Source of the DNA: Thereva unica
Taxonomy: Eukaryota > Arthropoda > Insecta > Diptera > Therevidae
DNA: 64,000 nucleotides
Reading direction: 5' to 3'
Assembly: GCA_949987705.1 (NCBI GenBank)
Contig: OX465282.1
Span: 83,750,070 to 83,814,069, forward strand
The notes below the pieces were generated by a model. The model did no database searches and was not told the DNA's origin. It saw only the letters and a program-made list of their open reading frames with translations. A program made the translations under genes and the position numbers. Shown here one piece after another: positions 6,412-54,585 of this stretch. Every line of letters starts with the position of its first letter. Within the stretch, counting starts at the first letter, position 1.

Positions 6412-6414
6412 TAT

Positions 6415-6906: not shown

Positions 6907-6908
6907 AT

Positions 6909-29131: not shown

Positions 29132-29578
29132 AGCCTAGTATGGAGTTCAAACGGAATTCCGTTCAGCATTTTTGGCATATATTTCTACACGGAAAAATTC
29201 CGTGTAGAGTACTGTGAAGAAAAAGTCAAAACGTGAGAAAAAGTTAACAGCTGACTGATAAAAATCACATATTACACCACGCACTTGGCCGCAACAGCTG
29301 TTTTTTTCGTTCTGTCAAAATTACCAACAGCAGCAACACGGAATAATTGTCTAGCTATTTATTCCGTTCCAACGTGAACGGAAAAAAGTCTCCAATTCCC
29401 CTGCAGAGCCATCTGTTAGAAAGTTTCACAAGTGATATATTACCAACAAAATTCCGTTCGAAGTCCGTACTCACAAAACAAAAAGTACACGGAAAAATCG
29501 GGTGAACGGAATTCCGTTCATGTTTTTACATGTATTTTATATGGGGAACGGAATTCCGTTCGAACTCCATACTAGGCT
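29132..29578. mobile_element. MITE with AGCCTAGTATGGAGTTC ends, copy 1
   Basis: 447 bp, starting AGCCTAGTATGGAGTTCAAA and ending in the inverted form. Both arms carry CGGAATTCCGTT palindromes. No clean duplication is visible, perhaps because copy 2 inserted at its last base. Confidence 0.8.
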
Positions 29579-29580
29579 TA

Positions 29581-31078
29581 AGCCTAGTATGGAGTTCAAA
29601 CGGAATTCCGTTCCCCATATAAAATACACGTAAAAAGATGCACGGAATTCCGTTCACCCGATTTTTCCGTGTACTTTTTGTTTTGGGAGTACGGACTTCG
29701 AAGGGAATTCTGTACTTGTGAAACTTTCTAACAGATGGCTCTGCAATGGAAATTGGAGACTTTTTCCGTTCACGTTGGACGGAATAAATAGCTAGACAAT
29801 TATTCCGTTGTTGTGCTGTTAGTAATTTTGACAGAACGACAGAAAATCACCTTTTGCCGTTCTGATTTTTGAAATTTATTAAATTTTCTGTTAATTCCTT
29901 TTTTTTAATTCTGACTTTCATTAAATATATAATAATAATTGCGGTTCAAATAAATGTAATTACTCTTATTGAATATTTTGTATTTTTTGTTTGCAATCAC
30001 CGCATATATATCCCTTAATAAATACATAAGGGGGCACACGCACCTAGAAGGCGAAAAAACGGGAGCAACTTTGGGACGCGATTTCTCGCGAAGTATATGC
30101 AATAACCGAACGAACGCTTTTTTTTTAGTTTAAAGGGCTTGTTTTAAACTATTTATTTTCTAGTAAAAGTGCACAAAATGACAAAAACTGAAAGGCCAAC
30201 GTCGGCTGTAATTGGGGCATGTACTCCGTGACTTTGCTGGCGGTTACCAACGTCCTGTCCAAACTAATAATCTGAAACAAAAAAAAACAATTTTTAATGA
30301 AAACTAGTCATTTATAAAACAGATTGACGATCGGTGATTTTCAAAACTGCAAACACAAACGCAATGGCAGCGCTTCGATTTTTAAGTATGCTAAAAATTA
30401 CATGATTTTTTGTAATTTGTTTAAAAATAAGAATTTTTTTTAAAAATCTGAGATCGTCAATATGTGAAGAAGGGTTTACTGAGTAATTCTGCAAAATTTC
30501 ATGCATTTTTGTCGATCTGTTCTCGAGATATCGTGGTAACGAATTCGGAAAATGGCGTTTCGAGAAAAACAGCCTCAAAGTTTAGGTGACAGTTTTTTCG
30601 CGATAAGTTTTGGAGTTGAGAGTTTTACCTTTATTCGGCAATCCCAGGGCCGGCTATTGCTTCATCGCTTGTCGATTTTTTCGACCTTCTGCGAGCAATT
30701 CTTCCTTCTCGTGTGGCTCTTCTCGAAAATTGTTTGCTAAGTCGATTTCACGATGTCTGAAAGGAAGGCTTAAGACAGCGCGACTTTCGGCGTTCAGGTC
30801 AGAAGGCTGCCGTCGCGTCTTGCGCGACATAATACTTTCTAACTCCTTTGTTTTTCAAGTTATCGATCTAAAATTTTAAACATGCATTCTCGAGGGTATA
30901 TTCTTTCAAAATATCAAAAAAAAAAAAAATTCGAAAATTTTGACTTGCTAGGTGCGTGTGCCCCCATAAAAGTCAACTTTATACTTTTTCTCCACAATAT
31001 TTTCTACACGAATTTTTCCGTGTAGAATTAAATTGCAAATATGCTAGACGGAATTCCGTTTGAACTCCATACTAGGCT
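29581..31078. mobile_element. MITE with AGCCTAGTATGGAGTTC ends, copy 2
   Basis: The same ends as copy 1, flanked by TTA (29578-29580 and 31079-31081). It contains another inverted-repeat element at 30030-30965. Inserted directly at the end of copy 1. Confidence 0.82.
30030..30965. mobile_element. GGGGGCACACGCACCTAG-ended element
   Basis: 936 bp. GGGGGCACACGCACCTAG at 30030 is mirrored by CTAGGTGCGTGTGCCCCC ending at 30965. ATAA flanks both sides (30026-30029 and 30966-30969). Nested in the MITE above. The open frames inside have no recognisable domain. Confidence 0.75.
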
Positions 31079-32881: not shown

Positions 32882-32994
32882 ACATGTTTCAGATATGCAT
32901 AACTTCGATATGCATTTTCTTGGTGACGTTATTTTGCCCGCGAGCAAATGTTCGTTTGCCTTGGTAGGTTCTTTTTGCCCACTGAGATAAAGGG

Positions 32995-34225
32995 AGCCCT
33001 GTGAAGCTGGCACCACAAAGTCTGGAAAATCAATTTCGAAAATGCCAAAATTAGGTGCTTTTTAGGGGCTAATTTGGTGCCAACGTTATAAATTAGGGGC
33101 TCACAAAATGAAAAAGATATTGAGGGTTCAATAATGTTGTGCCAGCTTCACGTGAAGCTAGCACAACATCATCTATTTAACAATAAAAATTAAATGTATG
33201 AAAGGCAAATTTAGGTGCTAATTAGGTGCTTCAAGGTCGTATAAATTTCATTTTAGTCAGCTGCACCACAAAGCACACACCGATATAATTAAAATAAACA
33301 ATTGAAGCTAGCACAACATCATCTATTTAACAATAAAAATTAAATGTATGAACGGCATATTTAGGTGCTCATTGGGTGCTTCAAGGTCGTATAAATTTCA
33401 TTTTAGTCACCTGCACCACAAAGCACACACCGATATAATTGAAGTAAACAATTCAGGTACGATGACAAATGGAACAAAAACAAAACACAAAATTTAACAT
33501 CATCTATTTAACAATAAAAATTAAATGTATGAATGGCAAATTTAGGTGCTAATTAGGTACTTCAAGGTCGTATAAATGTCATTTTAGTTAGCTGCACCAC
33601 AAACCACACACCGATATAATTGAAATAAAGAATTGAAGCTAGAACATCATCTATTTAACAATAAAAATTAAATGTATGAACGGCATATTTAGGTGCTAAT
33701 TGGGTGCTTTAAGGTCGTATAAATTTCATTTTAATCAACTGCGCCACAAAGCACACACCGATATAATTGAAAAAAACAATTGAAGCTAGAGCATCATCTA
33801 TTTAACAATAAAAATTAAATGTATGAACGGCATATTTAGGTGCTAATCGGGTGCTTCAAAGTCGTATAAATTTCATTTTAGTCAGCTGCACCACAATTCA
33901 CACACCGATATAATTGAAATGAACAATTCAGGTACGATGATAAATGGAACAAAAAGAAACACATAATTGAAGCTGGCACCACTAAGTCTCGGAAATAAAT
34001 TTCGAAAATACCAAAATTAGGGGCTTTTTAGGGGCTAATTTAGTGCCAACATTATAAATTGAAGATTCAATAATGTTGTTGCTTCACGTGAAGCTAGCAT
34101 AACATCATCTATTTAACAATAAAAATTAAATGTATGAACGCAATATTTAGGTGCTAATTGTGTGCTCGAGGGTCGTATAAATTTCATTCTAGTAAGCTGC
34201 ACCACAAAGCACACACCACATTGAC
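32995..34225 (+). repeat. Subterminal tandem repeats, left arm
   Basis: Units of roughly 150-165 bases: GAAGCTAGCACAACATCATC, TAACAATAAAAATTAAATG, an AGGTGCTAATTAGGTGCTTC part and CACACACCGATATAATTGAA, starting near 33152, 33303, 33500, 33636, 33782 and 34090. The terminal piece (CTGGCACCAC..AAGTCT..GGGGCT) is itself repeated at 33966-34075. GCCAGCTTCACGTGAAGCTAGC near 33140-33162 is palindromic. Mirrored at 48695-49925. Confidence 0.85.
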
Positions 34226-34830
34226 TTGAGCGCCATCACAATTCCCAACTGGCTGGTGTATTGGCGCGTACCAAAAGTAAAAAGTTGGCAAAAGTGAGCT
34301 ACAAAACCAGCACCACGCGCCAGCTGCACATTGTGTATGTACTTCGGGTCGGCTACTTTTTTTTACTTTTGACAGTTTGCGCCATGGAGGCTATACAAGG
34401 AGGTATAACTCTTATGGGGAAAATAACCGAAAATTGATGCGTAGCAGAAACTAAACTTCTAGTTCATTTTTGGCCACAGATGACGCCTAAAGCTGAAGTT
34501 AGCTGAATTTTACCCATTTCGACCATTTCTTCAAAATTGTCAGCCGAAATGCAAAATAAATTATTGGGAATTAATAAAAATTCATTGGAAAATCCATAAA
34601 ATGGTTAAATACGAAAAATCAGAAGCCGATTTTTCAAGTTAGGCGTAAACATAAAATATTTTAATAGTTAACGAACTTGGCCATGAACCGGATGAATATA
34701 ATCCGCCATGTTTTTTGGGGTACATGTGACTGTGGCGCCATCATTAATCAAACAAAAAGTGACAACACGGAATTATACCTTCTTGAATAGTCTCCCTGGT
34801 TTGCGCTACAGCTTCAGCGTCACATTTACC
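34226..34830. repeat. Old repeats in left arm
   Basis: 34230-34400 is related to the GC-rich ends of the 22923-23756 element (CACCACGCGCCAGCTGCAC, ACTTTTGACAGTTTGCGCC). 34640-34790 resembles 25610-25770. No gene. Mirrored at 48090-48694. Confidence 0.6.
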
Positions 34831-34932
34831 TAGTTTATAGCTACTCCAAAAACAATTCGAATTATGGATCATACAAAATTTTTTGTCGTATAAACGGGGT
34901 AATTCGAATTATTACAAAATTTTTCGTCTTAA

Positions 34933-35688
34933 CCCGGGGTCAGACGATCATTTTGCCTGCAATTGCAATTTGAAATATTGCATGTCAAAGTTTTATCGGC
35001 AGTAATTTCATTGCATTGCAATTTCATTCTTACAAAAAACACGTAGAAGATAGTTGCTGTATTTGGGCCTTTCCACACTAGTATTCTGTATGCGGTATGC
35101 AAACTGGATTGACAACAACCGCGATTTCCACACCTATATTCTTGCAGCGGCGTAACCATTCATATTCCGATTAAGTACTTGATTGTGTGCGTGTGCAATT
35201 TCTTGAAAATTTCTGACCCTCCAAACTGTGTCTCTATTGGAGTTAGTGAGTTGAAGCCCGAGAAATAGGTTTGAAATGTGCTGCACATTTCTCTCCCAGT
35301 TCATCACTTTTTGTAGAGAATTCTCCTTGATTCTCTTACCCCCTTCCTAAAAAAACCCGTTTGCATACTGAATACAGAATACTAGTGTGGAAAGGCCCTT
35401 TGGTACTAATTTTCATTAATTCACTCATTTTGTAATAAAAAAAAAATAGTTAACTTTTGCCTTCTAAAAAATTTTTAGATTAATTCATATAACATTAAAT
35501 AAACCACGTCAAGTAATCTCCAATGCCTAGGTTTTTCATTTTCCCCCATTTTGTTTTAAAAAAATTTTGAATTTCTTGCATATGCAGCCATTGCATTTAC
35601 AATATTATATGCAATATTGCAGCAGTCGATCAATTTTAATGCTGCAATGCAATATTGCAATTGAAAAATTGATCGTCTAGCCCCCGGG
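34933..35688. mobile_element. GACGATCA-ended MITE, TAA duplication, left arm
   Basis: 756 bp. Ends CCCGGGGTCAGACGATCA and, read inward from the right, CCCGGGGGCTAGACGATCAA. TAA flanks both sides (34930-34932 and 35689-35691). The interior has many TTGCAATATTGCAT motifs. It holds a nested MITE (35065-35398) and itself sits in an ACCTAGTTTATAGC-type element. Confidence 0.85.
35065..35398. mobile_element. GGGCCTTTCCACACTAG-ended MITE, left arm
   Basis: 334 bp with about 28-bp ends beginning GGGCCTTTCCACACTAGTAT; TTT flanks both sides (35062-35064 and 35399-35401). Nested in the 34933-35688 MITE. Confidence 0.85.
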
Positions 35689-35754
35689 TAAGCCAAAGTT
35701 AAAAGAATTATTAAATACTCGTTTATACGTTAATTCGAGCTAAATCGATTAAAT

Positions 35755-36171
35755 CATTACGTTTAAATGATTTACTTGAGTTCCTGATTTGAAATTTACT
35801 TGAAACTCAAGTTGCGTTTTCGGTTAATTTACTTGACTTCAAAATGTCTTGAAATTTTCTTGAACTGACACTTGACCTTTCATATTATAACAGAAACTAT
35901 CTTCAAATTATAATATAAATAACTTTAAAAATATTGCATCAAAAGTATACATTCACTACAGTTTTTATCTTCTTCTTGTTCCAAAGAAAAAATACACAAG
36001 CAAAATTTCAAGTATTCAAGTAGTGTTTACATGAGCTTTTTCAAGTCAATCAAACAAATTTTTGTGATTTACTTGACTCAAGTATACTTGAAGTCAGGAC
36101 GAGGTTACGTGCATATTTAGTTACTTGAAATCTACTTCAAGTATACTTCAAGTAAGCATGTAAACGTAATG
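35755..36171. mobile_element. CATTACGTTTA-ended 417-bp MITE, left arm
   Basis: CATTACGTTTAAATGATTTA at the left, CATTACGTTTACATGCTTAC read inward from the right; AAT flanks both sides. Rich in CAAGTA/TACTTG repeats. A copy of the same 417-bp length lies at 58851-59267, in the orientation opposite to this arm, with TAT flanks. Confidence 0.88.
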
Positions 36172-36215
36172 AATTTTGCTGATATTAACTTGGTAATTTC
36201 ATTCCAGCCCTAACA

Positions 36216-36480
36216 CAGCGTCTACACTAGCCATGGCCATTTCCATATGGCATGGACAGTGTAGACCCTGAAATTTAACTATTTTTAATGGCAGATCTTA
36301 TGACAAACTCGATGGAAAGCCATTATGGCCGGCCATCAAATCTGCCATGATTTTGGCCATAAATTGATGTTTGTTCAAACAGCTATGCCGGACAGTTTAA
36401 AATTTAGTTTCATACGGTACTTTCAGTAGTTCACGTTTTTATAATTTTAAAAATATGTTTGATATGGTAACAATGGGTGC
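36216..36480. repeat. Dispersed repeat, left arm
   Basis: Starts with a hairpin (GTCTACACTAGCCATGGCC..CATGGACAGTGTAGAC) and continues GATGGAAAGCCATTATGGCC. The second part matches 60548-60690 (GATGGAAAGCCATTATGGCT), outside the giant element. Confidence 0.65.
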
Positions 36481-36488
36481 CTAGAGAC

Positions 36489-36872
36489 CACGGTCGTATA
36501 GACAGGTCTGGGAACTCTCTCACCATCCCATAGAGAAAAGTGTGCGCGTTTCAGATGGACTTTGCAGTAGTTCTTGAATTGATCACTGGCGGCGCAGAAG
36601 TCTAAGTAACAAATTTCGACCGCGTGCTTTCATGCTTAATATCATAATGACATCGTAATTTAGACAAACGAAGTTTCATGGTTATATGGCTGAAAGGCTA
36701 GGACCATTAAAAGGCCTCTAAGTGCTACGCTAGCTCACAATTAGCAAAAACAACAACAGCAAGTAACATAGACAAATCGCCATCTGCAGTCTACATCAAG
36801 AAACTCCAGTAACGATACGCGAAACGCTCACAGGTTTGAGCAGCGAGTTCCAGACCTGTCTATACGACCGTG
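36489..36872. mobile_element. hAT-like MITE, 8-bp duplication, left arm
   Basis: 384 bp with ends CACGGTCGTATAGACAGGTC inverted on the right, flanked by CTAGAGAC at 36481-36488 and 36873-36880. An 8-bp duplication is typical of hAT elements. The minus frame at 36796-37107 overlaps its end and is not a real gene. Confidence 0.88.
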
Positions 36873-36890
36873 CTAGAGACATATTTACTA

Positions 36891-37315
36891 TTACTATGAT
36901 TACATGCATACTTGAAGTCAACTTCAAGTAGACTTGAAAGTCAAGTCTACCAAGTAACCTCAGATCGACTTCAAGTAAGCTTGACTCAAGTAGATCCGAA
37001 AAATTTATCGGATCGACTTGAACTAAGCCATGTAACCTCTGCTTGAGCGCTTGAGTTTTGAAATTAGTTCTCCGTGAATTGTGTAATTCAGTTCCTTTGC
37101 AATTCACTTAATAAATTTATTTTATTTATATAAACTGTACATAAATGAGAAAAAGCATTTCTTCCATTGCTATTTCGAAGCAAACTAATGAGAAGTGTCA
37201 AGCATATTTCAAGCCAGCTTGAAGTCAAGCTCTCAAGTAGGTGAACTGTCACTGCGGATTGAACTGTCAGTTGGATCTTAAGTCAAGTCCTCAGTCCGGC
37301 ATGTAATCATAGTAA
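36891..37315. mobile_element. TTACTATGATTACATGC-ended element, left arm
   Basis: TTACTATGATTACATGC at 36891 is mirrored by GCATGTAATCATAGTAA ending at 37315. The interior is rich in TTGAAGTCAAGT motifs, like the 417-bp MITE, to which it may be related. Duplication unclear. Confidence 0.65.
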
Positions 37316-37845
37316 GTGTTACACCTACCCCGTTTATGAATGGGGCTATTCAGACGGTGCACATTCATGGGAAGTAAAAACGGTTTTATTGATGAGAGAG
37401 GGAAGGGAGCGGAAGAACTTAACGAAACATTTTTCACGCAAAAGCAAACGCGTGAAAACTTACACACATATAAAATGTTACTTCTATCTCTTGTTTTCTT
37501 TAGCTCTGTTTTTTTCTGACAAGTGAATTTTATTTATAATACATTTAAACGTTCCTGTAAAGCTTTCAATTAGAATTATGGATCATACAAAATTTTTTGT
37601 CGTATAAACGAGGTAATTCGAATTATTACAAAATTTTTCGTCTTAAGCCAAAGTTAAAAGAATATTAAATACCCGTTTATACGTTAATTCGAGCTAAATC
37701 GATTTTTGTTGGTTGGGTGTTGGCCCGTGTGAAACTGGCCATAGCAGTTGGGTCAATTCCTGCATACAAGCCATACAAGCCTGTCTACATTTAGACGAGT
37801 GTAATGCAAAGCAAGGGAAAATTGCTTAGAGGGAAAAATTGCTTA

Positions 37846-38204
37846 GGGCTGTTTTACACGAGCCGACGGCCAACCAACAGAAATCGTATGAAAACGTCAT
37901 TTGTAGAGAAGAGGGCGAGAGAGGACGATGGGGAGGGAAGATTTTTCCATTCAACTTTCTCACACGATTTTCGATACGACTTTTTGACAGCTGTGTGGTT
38001 GTTGTTGTTTTTTATTCCTTTGTGAAGAAGAAAAGAAAGAGAAAAGACAAAACAACAACAATAAGCTAAAGCGTTTTGACGTAGAGTTGGTTGGAAAAAT
38101 TGGCCCGTGTGAAAGCCCATGCGACTTGTCGTCGAGTTTCAAAAGGGAATGGACGATAATAGCCGATTTCTGTTGGTTGGCCGTCGGCTCGTGTAAAACA
38201 GCCC
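37846..38204. mobile_element. GGGCTGTTTTACACGAG-ended MITE, left arm
   Basis: 359 bp with about 42-bp ends beginning GGGCTGTTTTACACGAGCCG; TTA flanks both sides (37843-37845 and 38205-38207). A diverged end of the same kind is at 37706-37742. PIF/Harbinger-type site. Small open frames here are incidental. Confidence 0.88.
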
Positions 38205-38207
38205 TTA

Positions 38208-38974
38208 GATCACAAATTTAGTTGCAGCCTTTCTAGCTTTACAGACGAAACGACATTTGAATCAACAGAATTTTAAACGGCATCCCCGCGAGAGAGAGTT
38301 TCAAAGGCCAAATTAAAGTTGCTCATATCATTGATTTTCTGGGTTTGTGGCCGAAGAGCTCTATTTCCAAATAAGTTACCCTTTTCGGTAAGTGGCTCAT
38401 TGAGTCAGTAAGATTTAAACAACAAAATAAAATAACGCCCGTGGTTGTTTAGGTTGTTTATGGAGTAAGAAGAGTTTATTTCCGTCAACGTTAAATAAAT
38501 ATAGATTGAAAATGGTAAGTGTAAAAACCATTTCTATTCAAAAATTAATGTAATATTTGATTACACGACGAACATATGAATTAAACTAACAACATATCCG
38601 TATAGTCGCGTTTGTACGTACTGTACATGCGGCAGGTTTTGCTCTTTTTAGCGTTGCTGAATTTGCAGAAGTATCGATGTTTTTACCCCAAGTTGAATCA
38701 TCCGTAACATATTTAAGCAAATTTAATTCAATAGTTAAGTTTGTTACTTTTTCTCCATTCAATACTGCTGTAGCTGCCCTTGAGAATAGTATAGCATAAT
38801 TTCTATTTTTGGATGGTGTATTTTCCAAATTTAAGAAAAAATGTATTTTGGGAGTCGCCGACCCTAAGTTGGGATCAGCGATAACTGAAGCTATTGAAAT
38901 CCAATGTACGCACGTTGATGCTGTACCAGAAATTTGAAGAGGAATTGGACTACATCTTCATCGTTTAATTAAAG
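38208..38974 (+). pseudogene. Nop56: Captured NOP56 gene fragment, left arm
   Basis: A leader (38208-38511) is followed by ATG at 38512-38514 directly before GTAAGT, an intron to TATAG at 38605, then an exon to 38974 ending at GTAAGC. The exon reads SRLYVLY, then after a frameshift [45 protein letters not shown], a stop, KKKCILGVADPKLGSAITEA, IQCTHVDAVPE, a stop and RGIGLHLHRLIK. These are the N-terminal NOP5NT-type and early coiled-coil parts of NOP56, a core box C/D snoRNP protein. The retained intron shows capture from genomic DNA, not from mRNA. Frameshift and two stops make it non-coding. Mirrored at 43946-44712. Confidence 0.85.
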
Positions 38975-39400
38975 GTAAGCTTTTCTTTATTACCAGGTTT
39001 TCTTACATGCTTAGATATGATGGATATAACACCTCATAATAAATACATACCTCAAGAAAGGAGAAACATAAAATTTAAAACTTTGTAAATCAAAATATCT
39101 CAAACCTCTTACTGTTACAAGAAAAAGCAATAAAATATATATACTTTTTTTTGTAGAAAATTAGCTAAGCTACAAAAACCGTTGGGCAGGTCTTTAAGTG
39201 TTAATATGATTTGTCGCCAGATGGCCGACCGTTACAGATTAATGAATGAATATACAAAAAACATTCGTTCGATTACTTAAACATAAATATAAAAAAATTT
39301 GTTAAATCCATGAAGCAACTGTATGTATAAGTAGTTGTTTTACAGTCCTTCTCTTGTTTCGAAAGTCCCCAAATAAAATTTAAAATTTATAAACAACAAC

Positions 39401-39919
39401 ATGAGTAAAATTACACCGCGAAAACGTGGAAGACCACGTCTATACGACGAAAACGTAATTTGTGAATTATTATTATCATACAAACATTCAATTGTAATGG
39501 ATGATGGTGTTATTAAATCAAAAACAGATCGTGTGTGGCAAGAAATAGCCGAAGCATTTCAAGAACAAAATAGCAAAAAAGACGAGCAATTTGTGAAGTT
39601 GCCGTCTTCTTTTTACACTTACGTGGTGTGTAATAAAGATAACATAAAAAATAAATTATACGAGGCAAGAGGAATAATAATTAAAGAAGAGAATATTGAT
39701 GAGTATGAAGATTCTAATGATTTAGAAAAAAGTATTGCCGAAAGTTTACAAAATTCTACTATTGTGGAAGAAGTTACAAATGATGTTTCAGATGTATTTA
39801 AGTGCAATATTTACATTCCTGTGACCGAGTTTCAAAAATTGTTAGATGTGAGATATCACTGGGGAACAAACAATAACAAAAAATTTATTCGTGAAGTTAT
39901 ACGAATGCGTCAAGGTTAG
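39401..39919 (+). CDS. AT-hook protein exon 1, possible MULE transposase, left arm
   Basis: 172 codons open from ATG 39401, starting MSKITPRKRGRPRLYDE, with an AT-hook (KRGRPR). An acidic region (KEENIDEYEDSNDLEKS) follows, then FKCNIYIPVTEFQKLLDVRY. A donor (CAAG|GTTAGT) at 39914-39920 would join it in frame to GEWQDFLNNKIW at 41567 in the centre. DNA-binding start and position suit the N-terminus of a transposase. I do not recognise the family with certainty. Identical protein in the right arm. Confidence 0.6.
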   Translation: MSKITPRKRGRPRLYDENVICELLLSYKHSIVMDDGVIKSKTDRVWQEIAEAFQEQNSKKDEQFVKLPSSFYTYVVCNKDNIKNKLYEARGIIIKEENIDEYEDSNDLEKSIAESLQNSTIVEEVTNDVSDVFKCNIYIPVTEFQKLLDVRYHWGTNNNKKFIREVIRMRQG

Positions 39920-40501
39920 TATAAAAAGTGTTGATTAAGAGTAGCATGAAATTGTCTTTATGTCACTTAGGGTATATTTTTATTTTCCTTTTCTTAAAGT
40001 ATTTTTTTAACTTTTCAATAATGTTTGAATACTATATCTCTTGCTAGGCCGTCAGAATTAATGATTTGAGGTTGTTTTTCGAGATATTTCTTATCCATCC
40101 GATTTTTTTGGAAAGAATAGCATATCTTGGTGTAAATAACAATAAAATCATATTGTGTATGCTATTTCTTCGATAGTTTTTCAAATATAATCATTAAAAA
40201 TAATAAATTAATATTGACTAGAATTTTTTTTTATTTTATTGGGGTGTTTTTTGTATTTTTAAGGGTAACGCCCATGCTTTAGGACAGCGAGATCGTAATA
40301 AGCGTCCCAAAAAACTATAGGGAACGATTTTCATAATGGTGTTATGTTTTGACTCCCTCCCCCCGCATTTTTAATGGACTAACATGCATAAAATGCACTT
40401 TTGGATGCAAGCAAGAGCTAAAATTCCATCTGCAGAGCCAAAAACGACTCTATATACACAATAAAGTTTATGTGATAATAAAATAAAAAAAATCTAGTCA
40501 A

Positions 40502-41218
40502 CAGTCCGGAGCACTTGATTAGCTCCACTTGAAATTTTGGCAGGATTCCTCGTGTAGTAAGTGTAGGTGAATGGGATTTGTTTTCCCTTTCTTTTGCTTT
40601 GCGACATGATGTCTGATAGCAAAAAACTCAAAATGTAACGGAAAAGAAAATGGTAAATCCAAATTTTGTATTTTGCACTCTTTGAAACAGGAGCACTTGA
40701 TTAGCTCCATCAGTGCATTTTGAACTTTTAAATGGTAGTCCTGTTTTTAAAATTGGTGCTGTTTATTTTTTGGGGTTAATAAAAGTTAATTTTGCATTTT
40801 TAAAAAAAGAGGGTGCAAGTTAAACATTGACTAAGGAAGAAATTGGGAAAAGAATTTGGACAATTTTTTAATTTACTTAAACTTTAATAACTCTTAAACT
40901 ATTTATCATAGAGCAACGTGTTTAGGCTCATTTTTTAGAGAAATGTACATTCTTGTACATTTTGATATCATTAACATAAATCTCAGTCGCTTCGTTCAGA
41001 AAATATGGTAGCTCAAAGTTTTAACTAAAATTTCAACTAAAACCACATTTTTCTCCAAAAAATACGTACTGATAATTTTTTTTCCAAAATTAGAAAGCTT
41101 GGAGTATTTCCTTCAAATAATGTCCAAACAATTTTTATGCTACGGCCTTAATTTTTGAAGTTATAAGCAAAAAGAAATCCCATTCACACAAGTGGAGATA
41201 ATCAAGTGCCCCGGACTG
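40502..41218. mobile_element. CAGTCCGG-ended Tc1-like MITE crossing left-arm boundary
   Basis: Left end CAGTCCGGAGCACTTGATTA; right end reads CAGTCCGGGGCACTTGATTA inward, then TA. The left flank is AA, perhaps mutated. The inner edge of the left arm (41085) lies within it, so the mirror arm has only its first 584 bases, which shows which arm is the original. A second GGAGCACTTGATTAGCTCCA is at about 40690. Confidence 0.8.
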
Positions 41219-41835
41219 TATCTGAAAAACTATCTGAAAAATAGCAAAAAATGCACTTTTTAGCATAAACGTGCTTTTAAATAATGTCTTCCAACCAAAA
41301 CTGTGCCTACGCCCTATGATTTTATTGATATTTACACCCAGCTCTACCTTTCTACCCAAAAAAAATCGAAAACCGACTTCAAATCATTAATTCTGACGGC
41401 CTATTACATTTGTTAATAATTCAAAATAAATAAATTTTTGGATTTTCGCAAAAATAAACTTGACATTGAAACCTATATTAATTCATAGCTAAAACAATAT
41501 TTTCTATCTAGATCTTCAAGTAAATAGAAAATTTAAAAAATAAATTATTTGTATCTTTACCTAAAGGTGAATGGCAAGACTTCTTGAATAATAAAATTTG
41601 GGACAAAACCAAAATTAAATGTGGGTACAATTTCAAGAAACATTTTGTTGGTGTAGATGGATTGTCTGGAACGGCTTCTGGTGCTTGCAAATGTGGTTCG
41701 GAGATTTCATGTAATTTTCTTCAAGAAGAAGACAATGTTGTGATCATTCAATGTGAAATGACAAAAGGTGTTGGTCAATGTGGTAAAAGGCCTTTAAGGT
41801 TTCCCCGAAGATTAGAAATTGGAGAAATGTTGCAA
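41086..41835 (+). other. Unique centre of the giant palindrome
   Basis: 750 bases not present in inverted form. It holds the right end of the Tc1-like MITE (to 41218), about 350 bases of AT-rich intron-like sequence, and exon 2 of the AT-hook gene. Confidence 0.85.
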
Positions 41836-41838
41836 GGA
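41567..41838 (+). pseudogene. AT-hook gene exon 2, truncated at right-arm junction
   Basis: Reads GEWQDFLNNKIWDKTKIKCG, YNFKKHFVGVDGLSGTASGA, CKCGSEISC, then IIQCEMTKGVGQCGKRPLRF and PRRLEIGEMLQG. The Cys pairs followed by a KRPLR..R...G..L block resemble the region before the catalytic domain of FB-NOF/Phantom-type Mutator transposases, as I recall them. At 41836 the arm sequence begins, and the frame continues only by chance to 41925. The catalytic part is absent from the window. Confidence 0.5.
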
Positions 41839-43000
41839 AAAAAAATTATCAGTACGTATTTTTTGGAGAAAAATGTGGTTTTAGTTGAAATTTTAGTTAA
41901 AACTTTGAGCTACCATATTTTCTGAACGAAGCGACTGAGATTTATGTTAATGATATCAAAATGTACAAGAATGTACATTTCTCTAAAAAATGAGCCTAAA
42001 CACGTTGCTCTATGATAAATAGTTTAAGAGTTATTAAAGTTTAAGTAAATTAAAAAATTGTCCAAATTCTTTTCCCAATTTCTTCCTTAGTCAATGTTTA
42101 ACTTGCACCCTCTTTTTTTAAAAATGCAAAATTAACTTTTATTAACCCCAAAAAATAAACAGCACCAATTTTAAAAACAGGACTACCATTTAAAAGTTCA
42201 AAATGCACTGATGGAGCTAATCAAGTGCTCCTGTTTCAAAGAGTGCAAAATACAAAATTTGGATTTACCATTTTCTTTTCCGTTACATTTTGAGTTTTTT
42301 GCTATCAGACATCATGTCGCAAAGCAAAAGAAAGGGAAAACAAATCCCATTCACCTACACTTACTACACGAGGAATCCTGCCAAAATTTCAAGTGGAGCT
42401 AATCAAGTGCTCCGGACTGTTGACTAGATTTTTTTTATTTTATTATCACATAAACTTTATTGTGTATATAGAGTCGTTTTTGGCTCTGCAGATGGAATTT
42501 TAGCTCTTGCTTGCATCCAAAAGTGCATTTTATGCATGTTAGTCCATTAAAAATGCGGGGGGAGGGAGTCAAAACATAACACCATTATGAAAATCGTTCC
42601 CTATAGTTTTTTGGGACGCTTATTACGATCTCGCTGTCCTAAAGCATGGGCGTTACCCTTAAAAATACAAAAAACACCCCAATAAAATAAAAAAAAATTC
42701 TAGTCAATATTAATTTATTATTTTTAATGATTATATTTGAAAAACTATCGAAGAAATAGCATACACAATATGATTTTATTGTTATTTACACCAAGATATG
42801 CTATTCTTTCCAAAAAATCGGATGGATAAGAAATATCTCGAAAAACAACCTCAAATCATTAATTCTGACGGCCTAGCAAGAGATATAGTATTCAAACATT
42901 ATTGAAAAGTTAAAAAAATACTTTAAGAAAAGGAAAATAAAAATATACCCTAAGTGACATAAAGACAATTTCATGCTACTCTTAATCAACACTTTTTATA

Positions 43001-43519
43001 CTAACCTTGACGCATTCGTATAACTTCACGAATAAATTTTTTGTTATTGTTTGTTCCCCAGTGATATCTCACATCTAACAATTTTTGAAACTCGGTCACA
43101 GGAATGTAAATATTGCACTTAAATACATCTGAAACATCATTTGTAACTTCTTCCACAATAGTAGAATTTTGTAAACTTTCGGCAATACTTTTTTCTAAAT
43201 CATTAGAATCTTCATACTCATCAATATTCTCTTCTTTAATTATTATTCCTCTTGCCTCGTATAATTTATTTTTTATGTTATCTTTATTACACACCACGTA
43301 AGTGTAAAAAGAAGACGGCAACTTCACAAATTGCTCGTCTTTTTTGCTATTTTGTTCTTGAAATGCTTCGGCTATTTCTTGCCACACACGATCTGTTTTT
43401 GATTTAATAACACCATCATCCATTACAATTGAATGTTTGTATGATAATAATAATTCACAAATTACGTTTTCGTCGTATAGACGTGGTCTTCCACGTTTTC
43501 GCGGTGTAATTTTACTCAT
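43001..43519 (-). CDS. AT-hook protein exon 1, right arm copy
   Basis: Translates identically to 39401-39919. No exon 2 follows it in this orientation: downstream on the minus strand comes the truncated Tc1-like MITE and then the antisense of exon 2. It is therefore an orphan copy. Confidence 0.6.
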   Translation of the reverse strand: MSKITPRKRGRPRLYDENVICELLLSYKHSIVMDDGVIKSKTDRVWQEIAEAFQEQNSKKDEQFVKLPSSFYTYVVCNKDNIKNKLYEARGIIIKEENIDEYEDSNDLEKSIAESLQNSTIVEEVTNDVSDVFKCNIYIPVTEFQKLLDVRYHWGTNNNKKFIREVIRMRQG

Positions 43520-43945
43520 GTTGTTGTTTATAAATTTTAAATTTTATTTGGGGACTTTCGAAACAAGAGAAGGACTGTAAAACAACTACTTATACATACA
43601 GTTGCTTCATGGATTTAACAAATTTTTTTATATTTATGTTTAAGTAATCGAACGAATGTTTTTTGTATATTCATTCATTAATCTGTAACGGTCGGCCATC
43701 TGGCGACAAATCATATTAACACTTAAAGACCTGCCCAACGGTTTTTGTAGCTTAGCTAATTTTCTACAAAAAAAAGTATATATATTTTATTGCTTTTTCT
43801 TGTAACAGTAAGAGGTTTGAGATATTTTGATTTACAAAGTTTTAAATTTTATGTTTCTCCTTTCTTGAGGTATGTATTTATTATGAGGTGTTATATCCAT
43901 CATATCTAAGCATGTAAGAAAACCTGGTAATAAAGAAAAGCTTAC

Positions 43946-44712
43946 CTTTAATTAAACGATGAAGATGTAGTCCAATTCCTCTTCAAATTTCTGGTACAGC
44001 ATCAACGTGCGTACATTGGATTTCAATAGCTTCAGTTATCGCTGATCCCAACTTAGGGTCGGCGACTCCCAAAATACATTTTTTCTTAAATTTGGAAAAT
44101 ACACCATCCAAAAATAGAAATTATGCTATACTATTCTCAAGGGCAGCTACAGCAGTATTGAATGGAGAAAAAGTAACAAACTTAACTATTGAATTAAATT
44201 TGCTTAAATATGTTACGGATGATTCAACTTGGGGTAAAAACATCGATACTTCTGCAAATTCAGCAACGCTAAAAAGAGCAAAACCTGCCGCATGTACAGT
44301 ACGTACAAACGCGACTATACGGATATGTTGTTAGTTTAATTCATATGTTCGTCGTGTAATCAAATATTACATTAATTTTTGAATAGAAATGGTTTTTACA
44401 CTTACCATTTTCAATCTATATTTATTTAACGTTGACGGAAATAAACTCTTCTTACTCCATAAACAACCTAAACAACCACGGGCGTTATTTTATTTTGTTG
44501 TTTAAATCTTACTGACTCAATGAGCCACTTACCGAAAAGGGTAACTTATTTGGAAATAGAGCTCTTCGGCCACAAACCCAGAAAATCAATGATATGAACA
44601 ACTTTAATTTGGCCTTTGAAACTCTCTCTCGCGGGGATGCCGTTTAAAATTCTGTTGATTCAAATGTCGTTTCGTCTGTAAAGCTAGAAAGGCTGCAACT
44701 AAATTTGTGATC
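43946..44712 (-). pseudogene. Nop56: Captured NOP56 gene fragment, right arm
   Basis: Mirror of 38208-38974: leader 44409-44712, ATG at 44406-44408, exon down to 43946. The same frameshift and stops appear to be present. The frame at 44092-44334 on plus is antisense to this exon and not a gene. Confidence 0.83.
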
Positions 44713-44715
44713 TAA

Positions 44716-47700
44716 GGGCTGTTTTACACGAGCCGACGGCCAACCAACAGAAATCGGCTATTATCGTCCATTCCCTTTTGAAACTCGACGACAAGTCGCA
44801 TGGGCTTTCACACGGGCCAATTTTTCCAACCAACTCTACGTCAAAACGCTTTAGCTTATTGTTGTTGTTTTGTCTTTTCTCTTTCTTTTCTTCTTCACAA
44901 AGGAATAAAAAACAACAACAACCACACAGCTGTCAAAAAGTCGTATCGAAAATCGTGTGAGAAAGTTGAATGGAAAAATCTTCCCTCCCCATCGTCCTCT
45001 CTCGCCCTCTTCTCTACAAATGACGTTTTCATACGATTTCTGTTGGTTGGCCGTCGGCTCGTGTAAAACAGCCCTAAGCAATTTTTCCCTCTAAGCAATT
45101 TTCCCTTGCTTTGCATTACACTCGTCTAAATGTAGACAGGCTTGTATGGCTTGTATGCAGGAATTGACCCAACTGCTATGGCCAGTTTCACACGGGCCAA
45201 CACCCAACCAACAAAAATCGATTTAGCTCGAATTAACGTATAAACGGGTATTTAATATTCTTTTAACTTTGGCTTAAGACGAAAAATTTTGTAATAATTC
45301 GAATTACCTCGTTTATACGACAAAAAATTTTGTATGATCCATAATTCTAATTGAAAGCTTTACAGGAACGTTTAAATGTATTATAAATAAAATTCACTTG
45401 TCAGAAAAAAACAGAGCTAAAGAAAACAAGAGATAGAAGTAACATTTTATATGTGTGTAAGTTTTCACGCGTTTGCTTTTGCGTGAAAAATGTTTCGTTA
45501 AGTTCTTCCGCTCCCTTCCCTCTCTCATCAATAAAACCGTTTTTACTTCCCATGAATGTGCACCGTCTGAATAGCCCCATTCATAAACGGGGTAGGTGTA
45601 ACACTTACTATGATTACATGCCGGACTGAGGACTTGACTTAAGATCCAACTGACAGTTCAATCCGCAGTGACAGTTCACCTACTTGAGAGCTTGACTTCA
45701 AGCTGGCTTGAAATATGCTTGACACTTCTCATTAGTTTGCTTCGAAATAGCAATGGAAGAAATGCTTTTTCTCATTTATGTACAGTTTATATAAATAAAA
45801 TAAATTTATTAAGTGAATTGCAAAGGAACTGAATTACACAATTCACGGAGAACTAATTTCAAAACTCAAGCGCTCAAGCAGAGGTTACATGGCTTAGTTC
45901 AAGTCGATCCGATAAATTTTTCGGATCTACTTGAGTCAAGCTTACTTGAAGTCGATCTGAGGTTACTTGGTAGACTTGACTTTCAAGTCTACTTGAAGTT
46001 GACTTCAAGTATGCATGTAATCATAGTAATAGTAAATATGTCTCTAGCACGGTCGTATAGACAGGTCTGGAACTCGCTGCTCAAACCTGTGAGCGTTTCG
46101 CGTATCGTTACTGGAGTTTCTTGATGTAGACTGCAGATGGCGATTTGTCTATGTTACTTGCTGTTGTTGTTTTTGCTAATTGTGAGCTAGCGTAGCACTT
46201 AGAGGCCTTTTAATGGTCCTAGCCTTTCAGCCATATAACCATGAAACTTCGTTTGTCTAAATTACGATGTCATTATGATATTAAGCATGAAAGCACGCGG
46301 TCGAAATTTGTTACTTAGACTTCTGCGCCGCCAGTGATCAATTCAAGAACTACTGCAAAGTCCATCTGAAACGCGCACACTTTTCTCTATGGGATGGTGA
46401 GAGAGTTCCCAGACCTGTCTATACGACCGTGGTCTCTAGGCACCCATTGTTACCATATCAAACATATTTTTAAAATTATAAAAACGTGAACTACTGAAAG
46501 TACCGTATGAAACTAAATTTTAAACTGTCCGGCATAGCTGTTTGAACAAACATCAATTTATGGCCAAAATCATGGCAGATTTGATGGCCGGCCATAATGG
46601 CTTTCCATCGAGTTTGTCATAAGATCTGCCATTAAAAATAGTTAAATTTCAGGGTCTACACTGTCCATGCCATATGGAAATGGCCATGGCTAGTGTAGAC
46701 GCTGTGTTAGGGCTGGAATGAAATTACCAAGTTAATATCAGCAAAATTCATTACGTTTACATGCTTACTTGAAGTATACTTGAAGTAGATTTCAAGTAAC
46801 TAAATATGCACGTAACCTCGTCCTGACTTCAAGTATACTTGAGTCAAGTAAATCACAAAAATTTGTTTGATTGACTTGAAAAAGCTCATGTAAACACTAC
46901 TTGAATACTTGAAATTTTGCTTGTGTATTTTTTCTTTGGAACAAGAAGAAGATAAAAACTGTAGTGAATGTATACTTTTGATGCAATATTTTTAAAGTTA
47001 TTTATATTATAATTTGAAGATAGTTTCTGTTATAATATGAAAGGTCAAGTGTCAGTTCAAGAAAATTTCAAGACATTTTGAAGTCAAGTAAATTAACCGA
47101 AAACGCAACTTGAGTTTCAAGTAAATTTCAAATCAGGAACTCAAGTAAATCATTTAAACGTAATGATTTAATCGATTTAGCTCGAATTAACGTATAAACG
47201 AGTATTTAATAATTCTTTTAACTTTGGCTTACCCGGGGGCTAGACGATCAATTTTTCAATTGCAATATTGCATTGCAGCATTAAAATTGATCGACTGCTG
47301 CAATATTGCATATAATATTGTAAATGCAATGGCTGCATATGCAAGAAATTCAAAATTTTTTTAAAACAAAATGGGGGAAAATGAAAAACCTAGGCATTGG
47401 AGATTACTTGACGTGGTTTATTTAATGTTATATGAATTAATCTAAAAATTTTTTAGAAGGCAAAAGTTAACTATTTTTTTTTTATTACAAAATGAGTGAA
47501 TTAATGAAAATTAGTACCAAAGGGCCTTTCCACACTAGTATTCTGTATTCAGTATGCAAACGGGTTTTTTTAGGAAGGGGGTAAGAGAATCAAGGAGAAT
47601 TCTCTACAAAAAGTGATGAACTGGGAGAGAAATGTGCAGCACATTTCAAACCTATTTCTCGGGCTTCAACTCACTAACTCCAATAGAGACACAGTTTGGA

Positions 47701-48185
47701 GGGTCAGAAATTTTCAAGAAATTGCACACGCACACAATCAAGTACTTAATCGGAATATGAATGGTTACGCCGCTGCAAGAATATAGGTGTGGAAATCGCG
47801 GTTGTTGTCAATCCAGTTTGCATACCGCATACAGAATACTAGTGTGGAAAGGCCCAAATACAGCAACTATCTTCTACGTGTTTTTTGTAAGAATGAAATT
47901 GCAATGCAATGAAATTACTGCCGATAAAACTTTGACATGCAATATTTCAAATTGCAATTGCAGGCAAAATGATCGTCTGACCCCGGGTTAAGACGAAAAA
48001 TTTTGTAATAATTCGAATTACCCCGTTTATACGACAAAAAATTTTGTATGATCCATAATTCGAATTGTTTTTGGAGTAGCTATAAACTAGGTAAATGTGA
48101 CGCTGAAGCTGTAGCGCAAACCAGGGAGACTATTCAAGAAGGTATAATTCCGTGTTGTCACTTTTTGTTTGATTAATGATGGCGC
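44716..48185. repeat. Mirror copies of left-arm MITEs
   Basis: Inverted counterparts: GGGCTG-ended MITE 44716-45074; TTACTATG element 45605-46029; hAT-like MITE 46048-46431; dispersed repeat 46440-46704; 417-bp MITE 46749-47165; GACGATCA MITE 47232-47987 with nested GGGCCTTTCC MITE 47522-47855. Confidence 0.88.
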
Positions 48186-48694
48186 CACAGTCACATGTAC
48201 CCCAAAAAACATGGCGGATTATATTCATCCGGTTCATGGCCAAGTTCGTTAACTATTAAAATATTTTATGTTTACGCCTAACTTGAAAAATCGGCTTCTG
48301 ATTTTTCGTATTTAACCATTTTATGGATTTTCCAATGAATTTTTATTAATTCCCAATAATTTATTTTGCATTTCGGCTGACAATTTTGAAGAAATGGTCG
48401 AAATGGGTAAAATTCAGCTAACTTCAGCTTTAGGCGTCATCTGTGGCCAAAAATGAACTAGAAGTTTAGTTTCTGCTACGCATCAATTTTCGGTTATTTT
48501 CCCCATAAGAGTTATACCTCCTTGTATAGCCTCCATGGCGCAAACTGTCAAAAGTAAAAAAAAGTAGCCGACCCGAAGTACATACACAATGTGCAGCTGG
48601 CGCGTGGTGCTGGTTTTGTAGCTCACTTTTGCCAACTTTTTACTTTTGGTACGCGCCAATACACCAGCCAGTTGGGAATTGTGATGGCGCTCAA

Positions 48695-49925
48695 GTCAAT
48701 GTGGTGTGTGCTTTGTGGTGCAGCTTACTAGAATGAAATTTATACGACCCTCGAGCACACAATTAGCACCTAAATATTGCGTTCATACATTTAATTTTTA
48801 TTGTTAAATAGATGATGTTATGCTAGCTTCACGTGAAGCAACAACATTATTGAATCTTCAATTTATAATGTTGGCACTAAATTAGCCCCTAAAAAGCCCC
48901 TAATTTTGGTATTTTCGAAATTTATTTCCGAGACTTAGTGGTGCCAGCTTCAATTATGTGTTTCTTTTTGTTCCATTTATCATCGTACCTGAATTGTTCA
49001 TTTCAATTATATCGGTGTGTGAATTGTGGTGCAGCTGACTAAAATGAAATTTATACGACTTTGAAGCACCCGATTAGCACCTAAATATGCCGTTCATACA
49101 TTTAATTTTTATTGTTAAATAGATGATGCTCTAGCTTCAATTGTTTTTTTCAATTATATCGGTGTGTGCTTTGTGGCGCAGTTGATTAAAATGAAATTTA
49201 TACGACCTTAAAGCACCCAATTAGCACCTAAATATGCCGTTCATACATTTAATTTTTATTGTTAAATAGATGATGTTCTAGCTTCAATTCTTTATTTCAA
49301 TTATATCGGTGTGTGGTTTGTGGTGCAGCTAACTAAAATGACATTTATACGACCTTGAAGCACCTAATTAGCACCTAAATTTGCCATTCATACATTTAAT
49401 TTTTATTGTTAAATAGATGATGTTAAATTTTGTGTTTTGTTTTTGTTCCATTTGTCATCGTACCTGAATTGTTTACTTCAATTATATCGGTGTGTGCTTT
49501 GTGGTGCAGGTGACTAAAATGAAATTTATACGACCTTGAAGCACCCAATGAGCACCTAAATATGCCGTTCATACATTTAATTTTTATTGTTAAATAGATG
49601 ATGTTGTGCTAGCTTCAATTGTTTATTTTAATTATATCGGTGTGTGCTTTGTGGTGCAGCTGACTAAAATGAAATTTATACGACCTTGAAGCACCTAATT
49701 AGCACCTAAATTTGCCTTTCATACATTTAATTTTTATTGTTAAATAGATGATGTTGTGCTAGCTTCACGTGAAGCTGGCACAACATTATTGAACCCTCAA
49801 TATCTTTTTCATTTTGTGAGCCCCTAATTTATAACGTTGGCACCAAATTAGCCCCTAAAAAGCACCTAATTTTGGCATTTTCGAAATTGATTTTCCAGAC
49901 TTTGTGGTGCCAGCTTCACAGGGCT
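48695..49925 (-). repeat. Subterminal tandem repeats, right arm
   Basis: Mirror of 32995-34225, ending GGTGCCAGCTTCACAGGGCT, followed by the GATAAAGGG duplication. Confidence 0.85.
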
Positions 49926-49934
49926 GATAAAGGG

Positions 49935-51249: not shown

Positions 51250-54200
51250 TTAGGACTGTTCGTCCCGAACAGTTGTCCATCCTGGATCCGGCTGATGATA
51301 TGGGCACAGCCTGTCTATGTGCACAATCGTCTTCTTGGCTTTGGGCCCTTGTTGAATTCTGTAGACAACGTCGTTGATCCGTGTTAGGATTTTATAGGGC
51401 CCCTCCCACTGGCGCTGAAGTTTCGGTGACTTGCCCTTTCGTCGTCGAGGATTGAACAGCCAAACGAGGTCACCTTCCTGGTATCCGCTACAGTTTGCTC
51501 GGAGGTCGTACCTAGTTTTCATCCTGTCACTGGCTATCTTAAGATTCTTCCTTGCAAGCTGATGGATATCTGCGAGTCGATCACGAAGTTCACCTGTATA
51601 ACCGCCAGTAGACTCGTTGCTTTCAACAGGTGTCCCAAATTTCAAGTCGCTTGGCAGCCGGATTTGTCTTCCAAAAATCACACTACAAGGGGTTTGTCCT
51701 GTGGAATTATGAACCTCTGTCCGATATGCCATTAGAAATATAGGGATGTAACTGTCCCAGTCACGCTGGTGCTCACTAACAACTTTCCTTAGGTGTTCTA
51801 GCATTGTCCTGTTGAATCGCTCTACCATTCCATCGGACTGGGGATGAAGGGGCGTCGTCCTGGTCTTCTTCACTCCAAGTATCTTACATACTTCTTGAAA
51901 AACTTGAGATTCAAAGTTTCTCCCTTGGTCAGAGTGAAGCTCATGAGGAACACCAAATCTGCAGATCCAATTGTTCACTAATTCCTCTGCAATAGTGATT
52001 GCTTCCTGATTTGAAATGACATATGCTTCGGGCCACTTACTGAAGTAGTCCATGACCACCAAAATGTATCGATTTCCTCGGTCTGACACCGGAAAAGGTC
52101 CCGCCACATCGATTGCGATTCTTTCAAATGGGGCTCCCACGTTGTATTGCTGCATTTCTCCTTTTGTTCTTACCCGAGGGCCCTTACTGCTGGCACAAGT
52201 TGTGCATTTACGGCACCAGTCTGCAACATCGTCTCGCATATGAAGCCAATAGAATCTCTCTCTTATTTTTGCCAAAGTTTTATTGACTCCCAGATGTCCT
52301 CCTGATGCGCCGTTATGACACTCCTCGAGAATATCTCTTATTCTAACGCGAGGGACTAATACCTGCATTCGATGAGAGGTACCGTCAGCGGTTTCCCATT
52401 TGCGCTTTAATACTCCTCGCTCAATGTACAACGAATCCCATTGGGCCCAATAGCTCTTCAGGGTCTCGCTCCTCTCAGCAATGTCCTTCTATTCAGGCTT
52501 TTCCTCGTATTCCTTCCATGTCAGAATTGAAGAAATATCCGGGTCGTCGCGTTGGGCGTCTCGGAGTCCCTGGTCATCCCATCCTGTCGTTGGCTCGACT
52601 GTCGTCCTTTGACACTTTTCCTCGATACGTCCACAATGTTTGCAGTCTGGTACGCATGGTCGCCGGGAGAGTGCATCTGCATTTCCATGGTTTCTTCCCT
52701 TTCTGTGGTCTATATTGAAGTCGTAGGACTGAAGTCTCTCTATCCATCTTGCCACTTGTCCTTCAGGGTTTTTGAATTGCATCAGCCATTTTAATGCTGC
52801 ATGATCCGTTCGAAGGATGAAGTTTTGCCCATAGAGATACTTGTGGAAGTGTTTAGTTGGGTCCACGATTGCCAATAGTTCCCGTCTTGTGACACAGTAA
52901 TTCCGCTCCGTTTTCGACAGCGCTCTACTGTAATAAGCTATGACCTTTTCCTGTCCGTCGAAGTTTTGTGATAGCACTGCATCAATCCCGACATTACTCG
53001 CGTCTGTGTCCAATATGAATCTTTCGCCTGGCTTCGGGTATGTGAGTATTGGTGCTTGGCAAAGTCCTCGTTTTAGTGTGTTGAAACTTTCCTCGCACTT
53101 TTCTGTCCAGATAAATGGTTTTCCTTTTTCTGTCAGTTTATGTAATTCCCTAGCTATGTCGGCAAAATTTCTGACAAAACGCCTATAATAGGTAGCAAGT
53201 CCCAAAAAGCTTCGAAGTTCATGTTTATCCTTCGGTGTGGGCCAATTCTTAACCGCTGTTATTTTCTCAGGATCTGTTTGAACTCCATTGGATGAAACCA
53301 CATGTCCGAGATAGTTGACTTGGTCTCTGAACAGTACGCACTTTTTAGGACTGAGTTTCAGTTGGGCTGTTCTCAACTTTTGGAAAACCTCTCGTAGATT
53401 GCCCAGATGTTCCTCGAAACTTTTTCCAACGACGATGATATCGTCCAAATAAACCAGACAAGTCTTCCACGTCAGTCCTCGCAAGACGCATTCCATCAGT
53501 CGTTCGAATGTAGCTGGAGCATTACACAGTCCAAACGGCATGACTGTAAACTGCCACAGGCCGTTTCCTACAGAGAAGGCTGTCTTTTCTCGGTCCTCCG
53601 GGTGAATTTCGACTTGCCAGTAGCCGCTCTTAAGATCCAAGGTAGAAAACCATTTAGCTCCAGAGAGAGTATCCAGTGTGTCATCGATACGAGGTAATGG
53701 GTAGCTGTCCTTTTTAGTGATGTCGTTTAACCGCCGATAATCCACGCAAAATCTTGTACTGCCATCTTTCTTTCTGACTAGAACCACGGGAGACATCCAA
53801 GGGCTTTTCGACTCCTCTATAAGGCCTTGTCTTGTCATATCTTCAATCATACCGGCTGCCTCTTCCCGCTTGGCTAGTGGTAGTCTTCTCGGCGGTTGTT
53901 TAATTGGCTGGGCATCTTTGGTGTCGATCCTGTGTTGAACGATGTCCGTTTTTCCAAAGTCATCATCTCTCATGGCGAAGATATCACTGAAATTCTCTAC
54001 TAATTTCCTTGCCTGGAGATACTGTTTTTGTTCAAGACAACTAGTTGAGAGCACTGCGTTTACTAATTTCGTGGCCTTTGGCTTTGGTTTTGGAACCGTT
54101 TCGATGTTAGCGCACTCCACTAATGTAATCTGTTCTGCCGGTTCTCCTTTCCCCAAAACCGTATCCTTCTTCAATCGTACTTCTCGTTCGTTAGTATTTA

Positions 54201-54585
54201 GCACTCTCACGAATACCTCCTTCTTGTCGTCGATGCTCACCAGACATTTTCCAATCGCTATATTTTTGCTTTGTTCCGTTTTTTCTGGTTCTATAAGGTA
54301 AAATCGGTAGCTCCCGGGATCACCATCGACTATCGCTCGTACCAATTTCTCAGCACACGGAGGAAGCACGGTATCTTCACGAGCGACGACTTTAAGCTGC
54401 GAATAACAAGTGGATCCTGTGGCCATTGGAATCTCCTTGTTGTCATATCTCAGTATTTCCTCTCCAATGTCCAGTAGAATTTTATGTGCTTTCATAAAGT
54501 CCAGACCGAGAATACACTCGTCTGTTATATCAGCTACCAGGAACGAATGTGAAAATCCAATGTCAGCAAGAACCACATCCAACAT
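51250..54585 (-). pseudogene. pol: Gypsy pol: RT, RNase H, integrase, one amber codon
   Basis: One frame from 54585 to 51250, broken only by TAG at 52489-52491, where copy 1 has a Trp codon. Upstream part (698 residues): protease end ILGLDFM; RT with DLKSGYWQVEIHPEDREKTA, MPFGLCNAP and catalytic YLDDIIV; tether and RNase H with DTDASNVGIDAVLS and DHAALKWLM. Downstream part: integrase zinc domain H..H..C..C (GGHLGVNKTL, WCRKCTTCASSKG), core with Asp in AIDVAGPF, Asp in HSDQGRNF and Glu in MVERFNRT, and a C-terminal EGDLVWLFNPRRRKG. No envelope gene follows. This is what copy 1 lacks. Confidence 0.92.

Follow-up and report, generated by a model that had tools for sequence, protein, structure and literature searches.

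The window analysed here, a 64,000-nucleotide (nt) stretch of the Thereva unica genome (C2:83750070-83814069 in a genome of 910 Mb and 930 contigs), contains a 17-kb feature that is a genuine fold-back transposon, nearly all of it mirror image. We interpret it as a recently mobile, non-autonomous DNA transposon, derived by loss of the middle from a larger palindrome that was itself formed from a one-sided ancestor, a reading to which we give a probability of about 0.7. The ancestor would have been an older one-sided element with repetitive ends of ~1.4 kb and the transposase on one side, which turned palindromic as repair following excision or breakage copied one of its halves over the other, guided by the inverted ends. 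The palindromic form would then have transposed as a unit, the near-identity of its arms being maintained by arm-to-arm conversion, and the copy in the window would have lost the middle of the palindrome at a 6-bp microhomology.

Structure and insertion of the element

Self-comparison aligns the two inverted arms (8091 and 8090 nt) end to end at 99.96% identity, with two mismatches (33559 A/G and 38322 C/T) and a single 1-nt indel in a T-run at 40103, on either side of a single-copy centre (Table 1); this and all other palindrome structures were read from the assembled sequence. The initial annotation of this stretch had delimited the same inverted arms and placed one 9-mer directly outside both ends, and both observations are borne out. 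The 9-mer, GATAAAGGG, abuts both element ends, the sequence outside the two copies differs, and the probability of a chance match is 3.8e-6 for any given 9-mer pair. The window holds two occurrences of the terminal 20-mer (up to 3 mismatches), against none in 100 shuffles, and each arm consists of ~150-bp tandem units over its outer ~1.2 kb.

Table 1. Features of the fold-back element in window coordinates
Feature	Position	Strand	Details
Left 9-bp target-site duplication, GATAAAGGG	32986..32994	.	self-comparison; empty-site rows
Left arm	32995..41085	+	8091 nt; inverted match to right arm
Internally repetitive terminal region, left	33119..34217	+	~150-bp tandem units
NOP56-like fragment, stop-interrupted, left copy	38590..38937	+	NOP5NT domain
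Transposase exon 1, left copy	39401..39914	+	predicted splice site; match to P0001
Nested element with short terminal inverted repeats, within putative transposase intron	40045..41403	+	inverted 70% match 40045-40152 / 41315-41403; TA flanks
Single-copy centre	41086..41835	+	750 nt
Transposase exon 2, 5' part	41528..41841	+	predicted start; matches 627-codon frame of 27.5-kb relative up to 41841
Right arm	41836..49925	-	8090 nt
Transposase exon 1, right copy	43006..43519	-	mirror of 39401-39914; identical reading frame
NOP56-like fragment, right copy	43983..44330	-	mirror of 38590-38937
Internally repetitive terminal region, right	48703..49801	-	~150-bp tandem units
Right 9-bp target-site duplication, GATAAAGGG	49926..49934	.	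self-comparison; empty-site rows

As far as sequence alignment can tell, insertion of the element with a 9-bp duplication is established by empty sites, a check that the initial annotation had proposed. The left flank is part of a dispersed host repeat (40 of 1296 candidates scored), and a query that joins 100 bp of each flank, the left part including one GATAAAGGG, returned 43 match rows (40 of 888 candidates scored). Two of these are the window's own flanks, while 27 extend from query position 13 or below to 171 or above at 91-96% identity; three further rows cross the junction over the whole query at 77-85% and one at 75%, the remainder being one-sided or only partly across the junction. 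In the best rows 200 query bases are aligned with 200 genome bases, leaving no space for a second 9-mer, as expected of sister copies of the host repeat in which the site is empty; the sites were judged by alignment spans rather than letter by letter. The duplication had also been taken as proof that the whole palindrome inserted as one unit. On its own the duplication does not prove this: an element of ordinary structure could have inserted first and been made palindromic later by gap repair, with the same duplication.

Copies in the genome

Further copies with the same ends had been suggested as another check, and a family of them was found. The terminal 60-mer gave 26 full-length (60-base) matches (40 of 47 candidates scored), and of eight elements with paired ends that were compared, seven have perfect 9-bp duplications, all mutually different and unlike that in the window; with the window element included, the duplications match in eight of nine. 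The longest copy read through measures 27,524 bp, with 12,128-bp arms that are 99.97% identical and hold a transposase gene each, and its large transposase exon 2 is uninterrupted over 627 codons. A 22,064-bp copy has palindromic arms of ~8 kb with indels, both 7.3-kb copies have palindromic arms of 3513 bp and a 2.3-kb copy has arms of 738 bp. The 8.3-kb and 25.6-kb copies carry inverted ends of ~1.4-1.7 kb and a 1.5-kb copy ends of ~0.3 kb, none of the three being a palindrome. Six single-end loci (L023-L028) match only piecewise, and a further pair of ends stands ~62 kb apart at C2:51.93-51.99 Mb.

Three older copies, M2 (the 25.6-kb copy, L017-19), M3 (L026 and L044, at C1:110.85 Mb) and M5 (L024, L042 and L043, at C2:61.9 Mb), two of which thus include single-end loci, show the order y (a segment common to them), central segment C, transposase half B. 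They appear to carry the transposase one-sidedly, which for M3 and M5 also draws on their single exon-2 matches: of the nine ~60-bp matches to the start segment of exon 2, two belong to the 27.5-kb copy and the other seven to as many different copies. M2 and M3 share the same stop pattern and may be one duplicated insertion, and are therefore not fully independent. Both are large copies in opposite orientation within C1:110.84-110.99 Mb, and one end of each bears GCTCCAACT or its reverse complement, the other flank of the 25.6-kb copy being unmatched; the arrangement looks like a large inverted duplication or an ectopic exchange between elements, as in Galileo.

Origin of the window copy and mobility of palindromes

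Mapped on the 27.5-kb copy, the window element runs from 1 to 8847 and then, inverted, from 8091 to 1, the middle being missing. At the switch point (8847/8091) GGAAAA is common to both templates, a 6-bp microhomology at window positions 41836-41841. The centre junction (41835/41836) cuts transposase exon 2, retaining about the first 107 of 627 codons and removing the catalytic core, and the window element looks like a non-autonomous derivative of the 27.5-kb relative; lacking the core, it would have to be mobilised in trans by a full-length copy.

A query across the join between A and the transposase half (A|B) (40 of 1535 candidates scored) gave six full matches, one on each arm of the window, 27.5-kb and 22-kb copies. 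Another five rows, at 98-100% identity, cover only query positions 54-191; they come from other copies, the 25.6-kb and 8.3-kb ones among them, in which the B side is present but A is not. The window, 27.5-kb and 22-kb copies are most simply read as descendants of one palindromic ancestor. That palindromes can move is seen in the 7.3-kb siblings (L009 and L010), which are 99.95% identical over their full length and share the same turn, a base found only on the left arm at 1368 and a gap found only on the right arm at 3518. They are flanked by different 9-bp duplications, GCGGATTAC and CTATCTAAC, and an identical turn between different duplications means that a palindrome transposed as a unit. 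The siblings turn exactly at an internal inverted repeat of 31-32 bp, its copies ~320 bp apart, which may be the signature of fold-back priming, or of a direct-repeat deletion if the parent was already palindromic.

The alternative that survives best, although we think it unlikely, is that the palindrome arose in place: an ordinary element would have inserted and later gap repair would have copied its left half onto the right end via the shared terminal repeat. The window turn was found only once in the genome (40 of 62 candidates scored), so that for this copy either order of events, palindrome first or insertion first, may apply; the 6-bp microhomology fits template switching, and such a route has been proposed for Galileo (PMC3573991; here and below, statements on the literature refer to the portions of the cited texts that were available). 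The A|B join, however, is seen only in palindromic copies and on both of their arms, so that the parent was probably palindromic already, and the 7.3-kb siblings show that palindromes transpose. Somewhat less likely still is a separate origin for every palindrome, in which a one-sided element, once broken or excised, folded back and primed itself at short inverted repeats. The 7.3-kb turn lies just where such priming would place it, and yeast inverted duplications arise from foldback priming near inverted repeats (PMC10622511). Against this, one A|B join is common to the window, 27.5-kb and 22-kb copies, which are therefore not independent; for the 7.3-kb pair separate priming may still apply. 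Long-read sequencing is known to yield false palindromes at times, but it is very improbable that a fold-back read made this palindrome from half of an ordinary element, since the arms differ at three places, the flanks outside the palindrome are distinct, the duplication and empty site fit, the same 7.3-kb palindrome stands at two loci, and two more families show the same pattern.

Descent from a mobile palindrome, the reading we prefer, also assumes that the arms correct one another. Private substitutions, indels aside, were counted in the three AB palindromes over positions 1240-8091, inward of the repetitive stretch (1-1239), wherever at least three other arm sequences could be compared. 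Four were found on both arms and ten on one arm (window 1, 27.5-kb copy 2, 22-kb copy 7). The both-arm sites lie at 1787 and 3765 in the window element (window coordinates 34781/48139 and 36759/46161), at 2100 in the 27.5-kb copy and at 2035 in the 22-kb copy, which suggests arm-to-arm conversion or repeated re-duplication of one half. The 22-kb copy has in addition a 13-bp deletion on both arms that is also present in other copies, and one-arm indels occur in the window and 22-kb copies.

Several points weigh against this reading. Apart from the single occurrence of the window turn, the 25.6-kb copy lacks a matching duplication, and M3 and M5 were read short of their transposase-side outer ends. 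Among the copies studied, none represents a stage between the one-sided form and the 27.5-kb palindrome, and the inner join of the latter, which has five full occurrences in the genome, contains a 2-nt filler and no clear microhomology. The both-arm sites are few (n=4), the seven one-arm changes of the 22-kb copy mean that any correction is incomplete, and repeated fresh duplication of one half would yield a pattern like that of conversion.

Transposase class and related families

The initial annotation had described a giant element of Mutator-like element (MULE) or Foldback (FB) type. The giant fold-back form, the repetitive ends and the 9-bp duplication uphold this in part, but no Pfam MULE transposase model was matched, either in 15 homologous proteins (E 0.1) or by the 627-residue open reading frame (E 1). 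The zinc finger in this frame matches Znf_SCAND3, and the predicted structural model of the transposase resembles IS256/P/hAT enzymes, with a DDE-transposase-like fold and ISCth4 as the best match. A target duplication of 9 bp fits MULEs (8-10 bp) and foldback elements (9-10 bp) and lies outside the range of Galileo and P (7-8 bp), and very long inverted ends with internal tandem repeats are a foldback-type trait.

A genome-wide transposase search (77 match rows; 70 of 264 candidates scored) contains two mirror pairs of distant relatives, with transposases 34% and 36% identical. The first (C3:166653683-166667564) is 13,882 bp long, with arms of ~6.6 kb that are 99.0-99.6% identical per aligned stretch, the duplication TCTTGGTCG and transposase reading frames on both arms. 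The outer ends of the second (C1:126500069-126515776; interior unread) are inverted and identical over 730 bp; it stands between copies of the duplication ACTCTTTCC, and frames of 1039 codons lie in mirror positions. Genes read outward in both relatives, in contrast to inward in the 27.5-kb copy. The search also contains mirror pairs 175 and 377 kb apart, and most relatives lie outside mirror pairs. The terminal 100-mer of L046, from a second family beside that of the window element (40 of 60 candidates scored), often occurs in +/- pairs with a spacing of ~1.9-4.2 kb, a sign that short derivatives may be numerous.

A wider idea, which is possible but which we hold only tentatively and on balance doubt, is that an insect transposon lineage, represented by three families in one genome (transposases about 35% alike) with mirror-image units of 13.9-27.5 kb, perfect 9-bp duplications and transposase frames on both arms (one interior unread), repeatedly turns itself palindromic and that its arms correct each other by conversion, much like those of sex-chromosome palindromes. 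The mirror form would then be no accident: it would recur as a normal phase of the life cycle and give the transposase a backup for repair.

Comparison with known fold-back elements

The element family is an extreme form of known fold-back transposons. It resembles Galileo in its internally repetitive long ends, in the recruitment of internal sequence into the arms and in chimeric copies with unmatched duplications (PMC4168063, PMC3573991). Unlike Galileo, which belongs to the P superfamily and makes 7-8-bp duplications, it has duplications of 9 bp and arms of 8.1 and 12.1 kb, the latter with a transposase gene each. The longest Galileo copy described from D. willistoni is 9021 bp, with arms of 4246 and 4680 bp and without transposase sequence, and a second copy has 1575- and 1608-bp arms containing at least 545 bp of transposase (PMC4168063), so that the 12.1-kb arm is ~2.6 times the longest Galileo arm found. 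The longest-armed copies of D. mojavensis are likewise described without a transposase reading frame (PMC4168063, PMC3573991), and the conversion-tract model of arm extension comes from Galileo in this species (PMC3573991).

Drosophila FB4 and the foldback MULEs Muta1 and Tm1 share 8-10-bp duplications, composite ends and subterminal tandem repeats with the present family (PMC8277862, PMC5225508, PMC3169594); compared by description, the ends of FB4 (~700 bp) and Muta1 (145 bp) are shorter, and no whole transposase gene is reported inside their arms in the text available. Arthropod MULEs have in common with it the arthropod host, a putative DDE transposase in the present case, and terminal inverted repeats, but complete elements in the survey measure 1875-9972 bp, with terminal repeats of 13-1193 bp, in contrast to 16.9 and 27.5 kb here (PMC13359780). 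Arms of 8.1 and 12.1 kb are thus ~7 and ~10 times the longest repeat surveyed, and the remark in the initial annotation that 8-kb arms are far beyond ordinary terminal repeats holds good. Rehavkus is similar in its 9-bp duplication, a minisatellite by one end and a transposase zinc finger, and is set apart, again by description, by repeats of 26-400 bp and a PHD finger in place of the Znf_SCAND3 match (PMC6446971). For Pack-TIRs, gap filling and fork switching have been put forward (PMC8277862). Among the matches listed in our literature search, none was a palindromic transposon whose two arms each carry a transposase gene. The origin of long foldback arms has so far been argued, in the sources considered, mostly from copies that are shorter and lack a complete transposase gene. 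Since one-sided copies, a palindrome with two transposase genes, shorter palindromes that map within it and two distant families with a like outcome occur together in this one genome, palindrome formation and arm correction become directly testable.

Gene content and other features of the window

Exon 1 of the transposase is 75% identical over 165 residues to that of a relative (P0001), both ending at the same place; the splice sites of the window gene are predicted from its sequence. The truncated exon-2 piece matched no Pfam family at E 1 and found no relatives in a protein search (78 candidates) or in viral contigs, and was identified only via the 27.5-kb copy; exon 1 and truncated exon 2 as one protein query found one relative among 346 candidates. 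The inner arm end (41085) lies inside the nested element of the putative intron.

The NOP56-like fragment matches Pfam NOP5NT over 38590-38796 (E 3e-14) and human NOP56 (E 2.9e-11); the part downstream of the stop matches no Pfam family, and we take it to be NOP56 as well. As the fragment is present in both arms, the family captured a piece of a host gene, and the element thereby has the Pack-TIR feature of a host-gene fragment between its ends. The outer 106 bp had no match in plasmids and the exact terminal 20-mer was absent from viral and prokaryote genome contigs, collections in which insects are few and the genome of the window may be missing. Neither ARAGORN (bacterial code) nor Rfam at gathering thresholds gave a hit in the window.

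A repeat of ~429 bp nested in the arm (35744-36172) has a 96% identical inverted copy at 58850-59278, outside the element and 9 kb to its right. Short palindromes occur elsewhere in the window at 20315-20806 (~490 bp) and 29291-29857 (~570 bp), as does a tandem array of ~146-bp units (27725-28665, 6.4 copies). Three long frames (51250-54612, 61106-61930 and 62410-63999), judged by eye, are presumably long terminal repeat (LTR)-retrotransposon pol or non-LTR reverse transcriptase-like sequences.

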